Assembly (NCBI RefSeq): GCF_000025625.1
Contig: NC_013922.1
Location: 2,356,001-2,420,000 of the forward strand
Direction of reading: 5' to 3'
Length of the DNA: 64,000 bases
DNA from: Natrialba magadii ATCC 43099
GTDB taxonomy: Archaea > Halobacteriota > Halobacteria > Halobacteriales > Natrialbaceae
The position numbers were made by a program, and so were the translations under genes. Under the pieces are notes generated by a model, which did no database searches, was not told the origin of the DNA, and worked only from the letters and a program-made list of their open reading frames with translations. Shown in pieces: positions 42,390-47,756 of this stretch (position 1 is the stretch's first letter; every line of letters starts with the position of its first letter).

Positions 42390-43391
42390 TCAGGTCCGCG
42401 GTTCTGCTTCCGTCTCCGCTGACTCGCCGACACGTTCTGCGTAGTTTCCGATCACGTCGTCCTCGGTGTCGATGAACTCGTTCGTCCAGACCGCGTCGGG
42501 ATCAATCTCGCCCTCGAGGAGGTCCGTCTCCGTGAGCGTCTGCCCAAGCGTCTGCCAGCGCTCGCCGTCGTGCAGTCCCCAGCCCTCCGATCGAGTACGG
42601 TCAGTGAACTGGAGGTCGGTCGCCGCCGTCTCGAACTTGCGCTGCTCGACCGGGCGATTCCGCTCGAGTGTCGCGTTTCGCTCGACGAGCACGTCGATCG
42701 CCGCGTCGGGATCGGTCGTCGCGGCTTCCCAGCCACGGGCCGTCGCTCGCAGGAACGAGCGGACCGTCTCGGGCTCCTCGCTGGCGAATTCGGGACTCGT
42801 GACGAGCATCATGCCGTAGACGCCGAGGTGGTCCCCGATCGGGAGTTCGTCGGCCTGTCGGTCGTGCTCGGCCTCGAGTTCGTAGCCGTTCGTCACGACG
42901 CCGACGGCGGCGTCGACGCGCCCGTCGAGCAGTTTGTGCTGGACGCGGTGGTGGGTGTGGTCGTCGACGCCGAGCAGGTCGACTTCGTCGCTGATGCCCT
43001 CGTCCTCGAGTAGCTGCGCCGTCAGAATCCTCGTCTTGGTCGCCGACGGCGCGATGGTGCAGCCCCGAAGTTGGTCGGGGTCGGTCAGCGCCTCGCCGAA
43101 CTCGTCCCGGAAGGTGTAGATCGCGGCTGGCGTCTTCCCGGTGACGGCGGCGACGGCGAGCGGGTCGAGGCCGCGGCTCTGGATCGAGAGCACGGCGCTC
43201 GCGCCCGCGAGAGCGAACTCGGCACGTCCCTTCGCGGCCTGCTCGGCAGCGAAGGGCGAGCCGTGGCCTTCGACGAACCGTACGTCGAGGCCTTCGTCCT
43301 CGTAGAAGCCGCGGTCACGTGCGAGGAAGTAGGGAGCCTGAAAGCCGTTAGGTTCCCAGTTGAGCTGGAAGTCCACAGTCGCGTTCGTCAT
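42390..43391 (-). CDS. NMT1/ThiY-like protein, cytoplasmic-looking (first of three)
   Basis: This 333-residue protein resembles NMT1/THI5/ThiY substrate-binding proteins. It has VDFQLNWEPNGFQAPYFLAR, GFYEDEGLDVRFVEGHGSP and a type II periplasmic-binding fold. No signal peptide, lipobox or membrane helix is visible, so it seems to act inside the cell. It lacks the CCCFC iron motif of THI5-type HMP-P synthases. It overlaps the next gene by 4 nt. Its ligand is unknown; no permease or ATPase is adjacent. Confidence 0.82.
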   Translation of the reverse strand: MTNATVDFQLNWEPNGFQAPYFLARDRGFYEDEGLDVRFVEGHGSPFAAEQAAKGRAEFALAGASAVLSIQSRGLDPLAVAAVTGKTPAAIYTFRDEFGEALTDPDQLRGCTIAPSATKTRILTAQLLEDEGISDEVDLLGVDDHTHHRVQHKLLDGRVDAAVGVVTNGYELEAEHDRQADELPIGDHLGVYGMMLVTSPEFASEEPETVRSFLRATARGWEAATTDPDAAIDVLVERNATLERNRPVEQRKFETAATDLQFTDRTRSEGWGLHDGERWQTLGQTLTETDLLEGEIDPDAVWTNEFIDTEDDVIGNYAERVGESAETEAEPRT

Positions 43392-44491
43392 CGCGAGGAC
43401 ACCTCCAGTCGGAACAGGTCGTCCGGAATGTGATCGACGCCGAGCGTCTCGGGGCCGGCGACGTCGAGCAGGTGGTCGAACAGCCGCTCCATCGCGTCGA
43501 CTGTCTCTCCGTCCCAGTCGGTGACGACCATCTCGCGCCAGTGGTCGCGAATGCCGTGGACGACGGTCGGGTCGTTCTCGTACATCAACTGGTCGCCGAG
43601 TTCGTCCCAGAGCCCGTCGTCCGTCTGTAACTGCTCGACGGCGTCCGCGTAGGCGCGTTTGAACCCGCTGACGGCGTTGGGATTTTCGGCGAGGTAGTCC
43701 TCACTCGTGAGGAACGTCGAGATCGGCAGCGTCTGCTCGACGCCCGAAAGCTGCTGGACGAGGTCGGCCATCGGCACTGCCTCACGGTAGGGACCAGTCT
43801 CGACGATTTCGGGGATGATCTGCCAGAACTGGAGGGCGGCGTCGATATCGCCGTCGCGCAGCATTCGGGTCAGCCCGACCTTCGATCCCGCCTCGACCGA
43901 CGTAGCCTCGTCCTCGGGATCGAAGCCGTGGAACTCGCGGCAGGCGGCCCGGGTGAGAATCCAGTTCTTGTCAAGCCGGCGGACGACACCAACCCGATGG
44001 CCGGGGAGGTCCGAAATGTCCTCGATCGGCGACTCCTCGGGGACGACGAGGCCGCCGACGGTCCGCCCGTAGGGGTGGAACGCGACGATCGGCGCGCCGT
44101 TCGCTCGCTCGCGTGCCGTCGAGATGTAGTCGATGTCGATCAGGTCCGCGTCGCCACCGTGCAGTTTGGCCTCGACGGTTTCCAGGCCGTCCTCCAGTTC
44201 GTCCGAGACGAGTTCGACGTCGAGGTGGAAGCCGTGGTCGTGGTCGAAGCCGAACCGCTTGATGGTGTAGAGCATGTAGCGGGGGCTTCCGTTGTGCTCG
44301 AAGCGGGCGCGGAGGACGGGACGGTCGCCGTCACGGTCACCGCCGGTATCTGCACGGTCTGTGCGCTCCGAACTATCGTGCAACTCGTCCAGTGCCGCTT
44401 GCTGGGTCTCGATGTCCATTGCTGTGCCTGCGTCGGTGCCTGTCTCGGTCTCGGTCTCGGTATCGGTCTCGGTATCGGTATCAGAACTCAT
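43388..44491 (-). CDS. NMT1/SBP-like protein with Thr/Asp/Glu repeat leader (second of three)
   Basis: The 367-residue protein starts MSSDTDTETDTETETETGT, an acidic repeat of DNA hexanucleotides (about 44415-44480). The body begins PVLRARFEHNGSPRYMLYT and continues with DADLIDIDYISTARER, GHRVGVVRRLDKNWI and AALQFWQIIPEIVETG. This is a type II periplasmic-binding-fold (ABC/NMT1-like) protein without a signal peptide. It overlaps its neighbours by 4 nt on each side, so the three genes form one unit. Confidence 0.82.
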   Translation of the reverse strand: MSSDTDTETDTETETETGTDAGTAMDIETQQAALDELHDSSERTDRADTGGDRDGDRPVLRARFEHNGSPRYMLYTIKRFGFDHDHGFHLDVELVSDELEDGLETVEAKLHGGDADLIDIDYISTARERANGAPIVAFHPYGRTVGGLVVPEESPIEDISDLPGHRVGVVRRLDKNWILTRAACREFHGFDPEDEATSVEAGSKVGLTRMLRDGDIDAALQFWQIIPEIVETGPYREAVPMADLVQQLSGVEQTLPISTFLTSEDYLAENPNAVSGFKRAYADAVEQLQTDDGLWDELGDQLMYENDPTVVHGIRDHWREMVVTDWDGETVDAMERLFDHLLDVAGPETLGVDHIPDDLFRLEVSSR

Positions 44492-45396
44492 TGTTTCGAC
44501 GGTGCCACGATCGTTCCAATCTCCGCCTCGCTGTCGATCAACTCCCGATCCTTCATCCACTCGAGTTCCCCGTCCAGTTCGGACGGCTCTGCGAACTCGG
44601 GTACCTCGTACTCGGGTACCCGCACCGATTCGCGGATCGCCTCGAGGTCGACGTCCGCGAAGAGGTCCGGCGCGACCTCGGCGTCGGACTCGAGCATCGC
44701 GAGATACTCGTCGCGAAACGACTGTGGGTCGTCGTTGATCGCATCCACGGCGCGCTCGTAGGCGCGCATGAACGCGTCGAGGTCGTCTTCGGCGAGGCTA
44801 TCGCCCGCCACGACGCCGATGTGATTCTCGAACTCGAGTAGCCGCTGGAAGCCGAGGTGCTCGGCGAGGGTGCTGTGGGGGTCGAGCAGCGTTACAGCGT
44901 CGACCTCGCCATCCCGAAGTGCCTGCAGGCGGTCGGTCGGCATCCCGTGATGGGCGAGTTCGATTTCCTCTGGCTCGAGGTGCTCCTCGAGTGCTTTGAC
45001 GGCGGTGTACTCCTGGCCGGTGCGGCGGTTGACGCCGACGGGCACGCCGGCGAGATCGGTCGGCGACTCGATGTCCGTTTCTGGTCGCGTATAGAGCGTA
45101 TAGGGCAGGTCGGCGAACGCCCCGTGTGCGACGATCGTTCCATCGTCGAGCGACCAGGTTCGGCGGAGGCTCTCCCACTTGCAGACCGGGTAGAGGTCGA
45201 CGTCGTCGTCGCCGGTCAGTGTCCAGTCTGCCGGCACGTACTTCCAGTCGACCTGCCGCCGGTCTCGTTCGAAGAGGTCGACCGTGAGCCCTTCCGCCTC
45301 GAAGTAGCCCCACTCGGCTGCCACCCGCTGTGGCAGCATGAACGAAAAGGGAAGGTGAAAGACTCGGATCTCGTCACGTGTGTCACTCTGTGCCAT
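44488..45396 (-). CDS. NMT1/SBP-like protein (third of three)
   Basis: Read from ATG 45394-45396, the 302-residue protein begins MAQSDTRDEIRVFHLPFSFM. It has DLAGVPVGVNRRTGQEYTAV and EVDAVTLLDPHSTLAEHLG. It is again a type II binding-fold protein lacking an export signal. The frame is open further upstream (to 45795), but the residues there are unlike the family and a palindrome overlaps the start. It is the promoter-proximal gene of the trio. Confidence 0.83.
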   Translation of the reverse strand: MAQSDTRDEIRVFHLPFSFMLPQRVAAEWGYFEAEGLTVDLFERDRRQVDWKYVPADWTLTGDDDVDLYPVCKWESLRRTWSLDDGTIVAHGAFADLPYTLYTRPETDIESPTDLAGVPVGVNRRTGQEYTAVKALEEHLEPEEIELAHHGMPTDRLQALRDGEVDAVTLLDPHSTLAEHLGFQRLLEFENHIGVVAGDSLAEDDLDAFMRAYERAVDAINDDPQSFRDEYLAMLESDAEVAPDLFADVDLEAIRESVRVPEYEVPEFAEPSELDGELEWMKDRELIDSEAEIGTIVAPSKQ

Positions 45397-45409: not shown

Positions 45410-45540
45410 CGATAACGGTCGGCATAAAACGTTTCTAGGAATCCTTTATACGCTCGTTGGCGGCGAATACAGTCATCGGATCCTGAACCAAGATTCACGT
45501 AGTAGACGGGTGGAGGCAACAGTGGTTGGTGACTGGTGAC

Positions 45541-45882
45541 ATGGACCACAGACAGACGGCCGATGTCGTCACCGAGGAGGTCGCAGACGGCGTCTTTCTC
45601 GGGACGCTCTCGATGGGCGAGCGGGCGAGCATGAAGTACTGGCAAATCGACCCAGGGGCGTCGCTGCCGACGCACGAACACGAGCACGAACAGATCGGCT
45701 ACGTTCTCTCGGGAACACTGACGGCGATCCTCGAGGACGAGGAAGTACTCCTCGAGGAAGGCGACGCCTACAGGTTCCCGAGCAACGAGTATCACGGGGC
45801 TGAAAATCGAAGTGGCGAGCCAGCGGTGGGGTTGGGAGTGCTCGCACCGCCGCGGAATCGGCCGGAGTGGCGAGATCGATAG
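45541..45882 (+). CDS. Cupin domain protein
   Basis: The 113-residue single cupin barrel has a Gly-rich motif with metal ligands in HEHEHEQIGYVLSG and in FPSNEYHGAENRSG. Cupins bind small molecules or metals and may be enzymes or sensors. The start is ATG 45541. It is divergent from the SBP-like trio. Confidence 0.9.
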   Translation: MDHRQTADVVTEEVADGVFLGTLSMGERASMKYWQIDPGASLPTHEHEHEQIGYVLSGTLTAILEDEEVLLEEGDAYRFPSNEYHGAENRSGEPAVGLGVLAPPRNRPEWRDR

Positions 45883-47046: not shown

Positions 47047-47664
47047 TTACTCGGCCGGCATCCGGTTGCCGCGATAGATCTCCGCAATCTCGCGGCTGAC
47101 ATCCGACAGCCCGATGATGTCGTCTTCCGTCAACTCCTCGCCGTCCCACTCGTCGAGGTAGGAAACGGCATCCTCGCGGTCCGCAAATGGCCGTGGGTTA
47201 ATCCCCATCGTTTCGCCGCTCACCGCATCCTCGTTGGTGACGATGACGAAGTACGCCTCTGTCGCATCGATGAGTTCACCGGTTTCGAAGTCCGTGACCC
47301 AGGCGTCCGTGATCGAGTCGTCGACCGGAGGCACGACATAATAGGCGAACAGGCATCCTGGCGTGTCGAACACCGCCCCCTCACCGTTCTCGTGTGCAAG
47401 CTGGCCCTTCCAGGCCGGATAACCCGCCGGCGTCATATTGCACACCGCACAGGCCTGATCGTCCGTGAACTCGATCGGCTCGCCGCCGTCGTGCTCTACC
47501 ATCCGCGCCTCGTATGGATGACGATCGTTGCCGTTTTCGTCCTCGTCGTCATCACCGAAGCCGCCGAGACAGCCGGCAAGCCCGACAGCCGTTCCCGCAC
47601 CCAGCGATCCGAGCACTGCCCGCCGAGCGAACGACTCGTCTGCACGGTCCGCGCGATCAGTCAT
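47047..47664 (-). CDS. NosL-like lipoprotein (copper chaperone family)
   Basis: From ATG 47664 the 205-residue protein has a Tat-type leader (ESFARRAVLGSLGAGTA) and lipobox GLAGC, so it is anchored outside the membrane. The conserved ACAVCNMTPAGYP region carries the metal-binding Cys and Met. The rest (AYYVVPPVDDS, GINPRPFADREDA) fits the NosL family. NosL proteins help assemble the copper centre of nitrous oxide reductase, but no nos genes lie nearby. Copper delivery to another enzyme is possible. Confidence 0.87.
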   Translation of the reverse strand: MTDRADRADESFARRAVLGSLGAGTAVGLAGCLGGFGDDDEDENGNDRHPYEARMVEHDGGEPIEFTDDQACAVCNMTPAGYPAWKGQLAHENGEGAVFDTPGCLFAYYVVPPVDDSITDAWVTDFETGELIDATEAYFVIVTNEDAVSGETMGINPRPFADREDAVSYLDEWDGEELTEDDIIGLSDVSREIAEIYRGNRMPAE

Positions 47665-47756
47665 AGATAGCCCTACTCGTGGGGCGCTCAAAACGGCCGT
47701 GGTTCAATTCTCGATTATTACCGCTCTCAGACGACTCACGCACCGACCACACGGGC

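Follow-up and report, generated by a model that had tools for sequence, protein, structure and literature searches.

What use could a haloarchaeon make of three substrate-binding proteins (SBPs) that carry no export signal? The question is raised by a 64,000-nucleotide stretch of the chromosome of Natrialba magadii ATCC 43099 (NC_013922.1, positions 2,356,001 to 2,420,000), referred to below as the window, in which three consecutive genes, here called A, B and C, encode proteins of this fold (Table 1). An earlier note on the window saw in them a plausible cytoplasmic unit and looked to thiamin metabolism for a lead. The first part of this interpretation has held; the second has given way, with B a relative of PqqT, which binds pyrroloquinoline quinone (PQQ), and with a genomic link to quinoprotein dehydrogenases. 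We propose, with moderate confidence, a role for the trio inside the cell: as a module it would bind a quinone cofactor, in all likelihood imported PQQ, on behalf of the quinoproteins of the PQQ-dehydrogenase family in haloarchaea.

Gene B and the PqqT family

PqqT of Methylorubrum (Methylobacterium) extorquens is a periplasmic protein that binds PQQ with a Kd of 50 nM (PMC12124388). Three PqqT structures, 9b1u, 9b1v and 9ooz, are the only strong matches to B in the PDB: phmmer aligned residues 72-360 of B with residues 17-297 of the 9b1u chain at an E value of 3.4e-31, and a profile search with B gave 5.7e-31 for PqqT. By the titles returned in the fold search, the entries represent PqqT with PQQ, PqqT with PQQ and Gd3+ (9b1v) and the Y161W variant (9ooz). 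When the AlphaFold model of B (pLDDT 87) was submitted to Foldseek, PqqT occupied ranks 1-3 with TM scores of 0.88-0.89 and E values of 5e-24 to 2e-23, the best match being 9b1v (TM 0.89, E 4.9e-24) and the next fold following at 2e-13. Residues D121, P140, Y141, G146, D174, K175, W177 and W223 are kept in haloarchaeal B, in PqqT and in all periplasmic relatives examined, and F222 of B aligns with Y161 of PqqT, the residue mutated in 9ooz. Sequence and model together place B, which has no signal, in the PqqT family, and PQQ would be its expected ligand.

B has in common with PqqT the family, the fold, the LDK-W, PY..xG and FW/YW motifs, and a genomic link to PQQ dehydrogenases. The two differ in location and context: PqqT has an export leader and is encoded alongside an ATP-binding cassette (ABC) permease and ATPase, whereas B has no leader, and its companions are two more proteins of the SBP fold together with a cupin and a VOC-fold protein. 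A hydrophobic leader is present in 48 of 49 bacterial PqqT-type relatives from a genome collection (that of relative L170, with a score of 1.76, was counted by eye), compared with none of 31 haloarchaeal B proteins. In Azospirillum, Alloyangia and Sinorhizobium the bacterial relatives belong to operons with a PQQ dehydrogenase, and at 18 of 49 bacterial loci such an enzyme is encoded within the 8 kb flank. Some adjoin xox/lut-type genes, in clusters that resemble the lut lanthanide uptake cluster (PMC7391723); the trio differs from that cluster in having neither a TonB receptor nor an ABC pair, and the equivalence of B to a lut gene is a candidate only. One proteobacterial metagenome-assembled genome (L141, 5260-7219) contains a signal-less PqqT-family gene, with about 41% identity to B, directly followed by a gene of the peptidase U32 family.

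Conservation and absence of export signals

Among 391 haloarchaeal genomes, orthologues of A were found in 54, distributed patchily over 16 genera and 6 families. They comprise 59 sequences with 57-97% identity, at 59 loci that are partly non-independent, a few species being present as both a plasmid record and a genome. At every one of these loci B follows A, and a cupin gene lies divergent from A at a distance of about 70-150 bp. C is present at 57, the two exceptions being genomes of one genus, and a VOC-fold gene at 56, located either downstream or upstream. The gene order, which the earlier note had proposed to check in other haloarchaea, is kept across all of these genera and families. 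The divergent cupin gene, overlooked in that note, equals the trio in its conservation and belongs to the unit. One haloarchaeal genus has the arrangement A-B-B'-C, in which the PqqT-like gene is duplicated (L059, L063-L065, L069-L071).

Strongly conserved motifs, probably facing the ligand, are found in A, B and C across their orthologues. In the VOC-fold protein H6, H68, H74 and E120 are invariant (57 sequences), as are H50, H52, Q56 and H90 in the cupin.

No signal peptide or lipobox was found in A, B or C of the window or in their orthologues (59, 47 and 55 sequences, respectively), as had been claimed for the window. Leaders arising from upstream start codons, which would have undone that claim, were sought by screening the orthologues for lipoboxes, and none was found.

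Association with quinoproteins

The same 391 genomes were searched for quinoproteins of the PQQ-dehydrogenase family, with presence defined by E<1e-30. One is found in 53 of the 54 trio genomes, and only 16 of the 337 other genomes have one (Fisher p 7e-50, a value that ignores phylogeny). Close orthologues of this quinoprotein are present in 44 of the 54 and in 11 of the 337, and in 26 of those 44 genomes the trio lies no more than 16 kb from the orthologue. Three genera (g2, g3 and g69) each include both genomes with trio and quinoprotein and genomes with neither.

The absence of a transporter partner, also asserted earlier, holds in the window, where no permease or ATPase gene was seen among the open reading frames (ORFs) inspected at 38-50 kb. 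It fails for the system: in many trio genomes, a C-like SBP with an ABC permease and ATPase is encoded at the quinoprotein locus. This importer is found in 29 of 54 trio genomes versus 18 of 337 others, and it lies within 16 kb of the quinoprotein in 44 of 45 genomes. As grounds for rejecting its reading, the earlier note had named a transporter operon located elsewhere but conserved together with the trio. Such an operon has been found in part: the importer co-occurs with the trio, although the genome of the window does not have it. The C-like importer SBPs bear clear twin-arginine translocation (Tat) and lipobox leaders in the same genomes as the trio; measured by leader and by permease and ATPase, they are classical ABC substrate-binding proteins and the trio proteins are not.

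A fusion protein, with a winged-helix domain and a cytoplasmic domain of the NMT1/C-like type, is encoded in an importer-quinoprotein locus (L073:15907-17181) and is retained in the genome of the window (L191:8591-10069). It probably senses a ligand and regulates the transcription of the quinoprotein/importer locus.

In other genomes the neighbors of the trio also include genes for AOR, for XDH-family proteins, for ALDH and for formate dehydrogenase. A partnership with the AOR/XDH/ALDH aldehyde oxidizers as the defining link was considered and rejected as unspecific, AOR homologues being present in 241 of 351 haloarchaeal genomes. Several genomes have near the trio a gene for a formate dehydrogenase alpha subunit (above the NCBIfam cut-off; L063:13826-15994) and SAMP1/MoaD-like genes (L087:18369-18656), which suggests an alcohol-to-CO2 oxidation island.

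The quinoproteins and their partner c6

An alignment with XoxF of Sinorhizobium shows that the Glu and Asn metal ligands are conserved in the haloarchaeal quinoproteins, and so are the catalytic Asp and the additional Asp that marks the lanthanide type; an HDxWDYD motif is present in every one that covers the site. Orthologue-type proteins also keep the vicinal Cys-Cys pair. In their metal ligands, in the additional Asp and, where they are of the orthologue type, in the Cys-Cys pair they resemble XoxF and the PQQ-dependent methanol and ethanol dehydrogenases of TIGR03075. The haloarchaeal proteins differ from these in lacking a signal peptide (0 of 32), in a substitution at a PQQ contact discussed below, in scoring 358 and 281 bits against a curated TIGR03075 cut-off of 480, and, in the present case, in being encoded outside the window.

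A constant neighbor of the quinoprotein is a protein of about 310 residues, here called c6 (e.g. L049:12205-13137), with invariant HLW and GG-LLW motifs and no match above cut-off in Pfam or NCBIfam. It is an undescribed quinoprotein partner.

PqqC was found in none of the 28 trio genomes tested, the positive control (Sinorhizobium meliloti pSymB) being matched at 429 bits, and PqqE above cut-off was likewise found in none of the 28. The idea of PQQ biosynthesis nearby was rejected, since PqqE-like radical SAM matches fell well short of the curated cut-off in every genome, the controls included. Any PQQ used by the quinoproteins must be imported or made by an unrecognized route.

Genes A and C

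The AlphaFold model of A (pLDDT 91) has ThiY, Thi5, SsuA and TauA as its nearest folds, with PqqT lower in the list. C is ThiY-like by sequence, and is paralogous, at about 40% identity, both to the exported Tat-lipobox SBP of the quinoprotein locus in other genomes and to the winged-helix/NMT1 fusion. As members of a trio, A and C were found in haloarchaea only in the data examined. Solo relatives of A, with about 30% identity and no accompanying B or C, occur in other haloarchaea and in α-proteobacteria (L099-L104, L041-L043), that of L041 within an ABC transporter operon.

As regards the thiamin lead, C has the fold and the N-terminal NW-PNG motif region of ThiY and related SBPs for N-formyl-aminopyrimidine and thiamin (3ix1, 4nmy) and of Thi5 (4h65). 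C differs from them in being cytoplasmic; the CCCFC motif of THI5 enzymes, reported as missing from A, is missing from the translations of all three genes, and the neighbors inspected revealed no thiamin gene. Nor does C have a counterpart of the catalytic Lys62 and His66 of Thi5 (pyridoxal phosphate and His donor), the alignment placing LALAGASA of C, with neither Lys nor His, opposite GLKAMIH of Thi5. A THI5/ThiY role was rejected on the absence of CCCFC and the association with quinoproteins.

Proposed function and its alternatives

The module we favor would work as follows. B would bind PQQ or a PQQ-like cofactor, supplied from outside by the C-like importer where one is present. A and C would probably serve for other ligands or partners, for instance the cofactor in a second or in a metal-bound form. 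Together, the three proteins would keep a scarce imported cofactor bound and hand it over to the apo-quinoprotein in the cytoplasm, before any export by Tat, and the cupin and VOC-fold proteins may process the cofactor. PQQ binding by B, complex formation by A, B and C, the loading of cofactor and the roles given to A, C, the cupin and the VOC-fold protein are what we infer. Tat exports folded proteins, which would require loading inside the cell, and a cytoplasmic loader would fit this requirement. A bolder version, which we offer only tentatively and which may well prove mistaken, is that haloarchaea carry out a salvage-dependent PQQ, and possibly lanthanide-dependent, oxidation of alcohols with a quinoprotein loaded intracellularly by a complex of three SBP-fold chaperones.

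Several observations sit uneasily with the proposal of a PQQ-binding module. The identity between B and PqqT is about 30%, which leaves room for a change of ligand, and A and C have no affinity to PqqT beyond the common fold. In the quinoproteins, a Lys takes the place of the Arg with which methanol dehydrogenases contact PQQ, and the proteins also match the empty-quinoprotein family TIGR04528 (275 bits, as against 358 for TIGR03075). Sixteen genomes have a quinoprotein and no trio (B is missing from them as well as A), and one trio genome (G036) has no quinoprotein at all at E<1e-30. The genome of the window itself has neither the orthologous quinoprotein nor the importer, despite an intact trio. 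It contains only a homologue with 42-45% identity, 1.66 Mb from the trio and without the Cys-Cys pair, at 737.8-739.7 kb of the chromosome (6769-8694 of L190, which covers positions 731000-746000), and the c6 partner of this homologue (L190 8691-9656) bears a Tat-like leader (RREFLKALG...) that c6 proteins of orthologue loci lack. This quinoprotein may be exported folded, by Tat hitch-hiking on c6. The pair adjoins a gene for a Tat-exported protein resembling glucose/sorbosone dehydrogenases, with a plastocyanin domain (L190 4250-6547).

Other explanations deserve to be weighed against the same evidence. SBP-fold enzymes exist, among them Thi5, DszB, MqnD and 4,5-dihydroxyphthalate decarboxylase, and such enzymes are among the structural matches, so that the trio might be a multi-subunit enzyme that, with the cupin and VOC-fold proteins, makes or modifies a quinone-type cofactor or an intermediate of the alcohol-aldehyde-formate pathway for which genes lie nearby. 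The cytoplasmic location, the near-constant presence of two metalloenzyme-like partners, the AOR, XDH-family, ALDH and formate dehydrogenase neighbors in other genomes and the need for another cofactor source where PqqC and PqqE are missing would all suit an enzyme. We nevertheless consider one unlikely: B is far closer to the binding protein PqqT than to any SBP-fold enzyme, the alignment of C with Thi5 holds at the family level only, CCCFC is absent, and no conserved catalytic set can be assigned. A further question is whether the ligand, instead of being PQQ alone, is PQQ-metal or a chelate of lanthanide or calcium; the module would then supply the metal of the lanthanide-type quinoprotein. 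The extra Asp in HDxWDYD, the structure of PqqT with PQQ and Gd, the binding of La by an engineered PqqT-PQQ (PMC12828617) and the xox/lut-type neighbors of bacterial relatives speak for a metal ligand. The closest characterized relative, however, binds an organic cofactor, and no lanthanide-uptake or lanmodulin-like gene turned up in the loci inspected, where no systematic search for one was made; we rate this explanation as rather improbable.

A sensing function has a slimmer chance. The winged-helix fusion, found in the importer-quinoprotein locus and in the genome of the window, indicates that the fold is used for cytoplasmic sensing, and a ligand-responsive complex regulating the quinoprotein system could be imagined on this model; the trio, however, has no DNA-binding or signaling domain, a sensor should not require as many as three co-encoded binding proteins, and there is already a separate regulator. 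That the proteins are ordinary ABC SBPs, exported by a route that the signal rules miss, is very improbable indeed. Fold and family would agree with it, but no orthologue has a leader even when upstream starts are included in the lipobox screen, related exported SBPs of the same genomes have unmistakable Tat and lipobox leaders, and the trio itself has no conserved permease partner.

The locus in N. magadii

Table 1. Genes of the unit in the window, with positions counted from its first nucleotide
Gene	Position	Strand	Length	Description	Pfam match
A	45396-44488	-	302 aa	Cytoplasmic SBP-fold protein, NMT1 family	NMT1, 1.3e-9
B	44491-43388	-	367 aa	PqqT-family protein without signal	NMT1, 1.1e-10
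C	43391-42390	-	333 aa	Cytoplasmic ThiY-like SBP-fold protein	NMT1, 1.6e-31
VOC-fold gene	42381-41953	-	142 aa	Small metalloenzyme-like protein	Glyoxalase, 1.3e-8
Cupin gene	45541-45882	+		Divergent from A	Cupin_2, 1.4e-19

The earlier description of the locus agrees well with the coordinates. The scores of A, B and C all lie above the Pfam NMT1 cut-off, in line with the NMT1/SBP-type fold given to them; the genes overlap by 4 nt (ATGA) at both junctions, and the VOC-fold gene follows C on the same strand, 8 nt downstream. The A-B overlap is possibly only apparent in the window, because B may begin at M25 (44419): its N terminus is a 24-residue low-complexity TDTETDTE repeat (44419-44491) that is missing from many orthologues, and many of these start at the position equivalent to M25. 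The gap between the cupin gene and A is about 145 bp, and a TTG start listed for the cupin at 45526 is probably not the one used.

The BKACE, Ogt and Fe-ADH genes that adjoin the trio in the window were rejected as members of the unit, being common only to close relatives. An ORF at 47047-47691 has a twin-arginine lipobox leader and a CNM motif and, judged by eye, resembles the copper lipoprotein NosL.

Implications

Most of what is known of PQQ enzymes and of proteins that bind PQQ comes from Gram-negative bacteria, where they are described as periplasmic (PMC12124388); no description of PQQ handling by haloarchaea was found in the open-access literature. Binding by PqqT-family proteins is known, and what is new is a signal-less, three-protein version tied to signal-less archaeal quinoproteins of the lanthanide type. 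If the proposal is correct, the cytoplasmic loading of cofactor would be a new route for PQQ enzymes. The proposal gives three genes whose annotation reads "ABC transporter substrate-binding protein" a hypothetical part in PQQ handling that can be tested directly, and offers their products as new scaffolds for the binding of PQQ and rare earths. That a conserved protein of the PqqT family has no signal, is joined by two companions and occurs in archaea lacking PqqC points to an unrecognized cofactor economy in hypersaline habitats.

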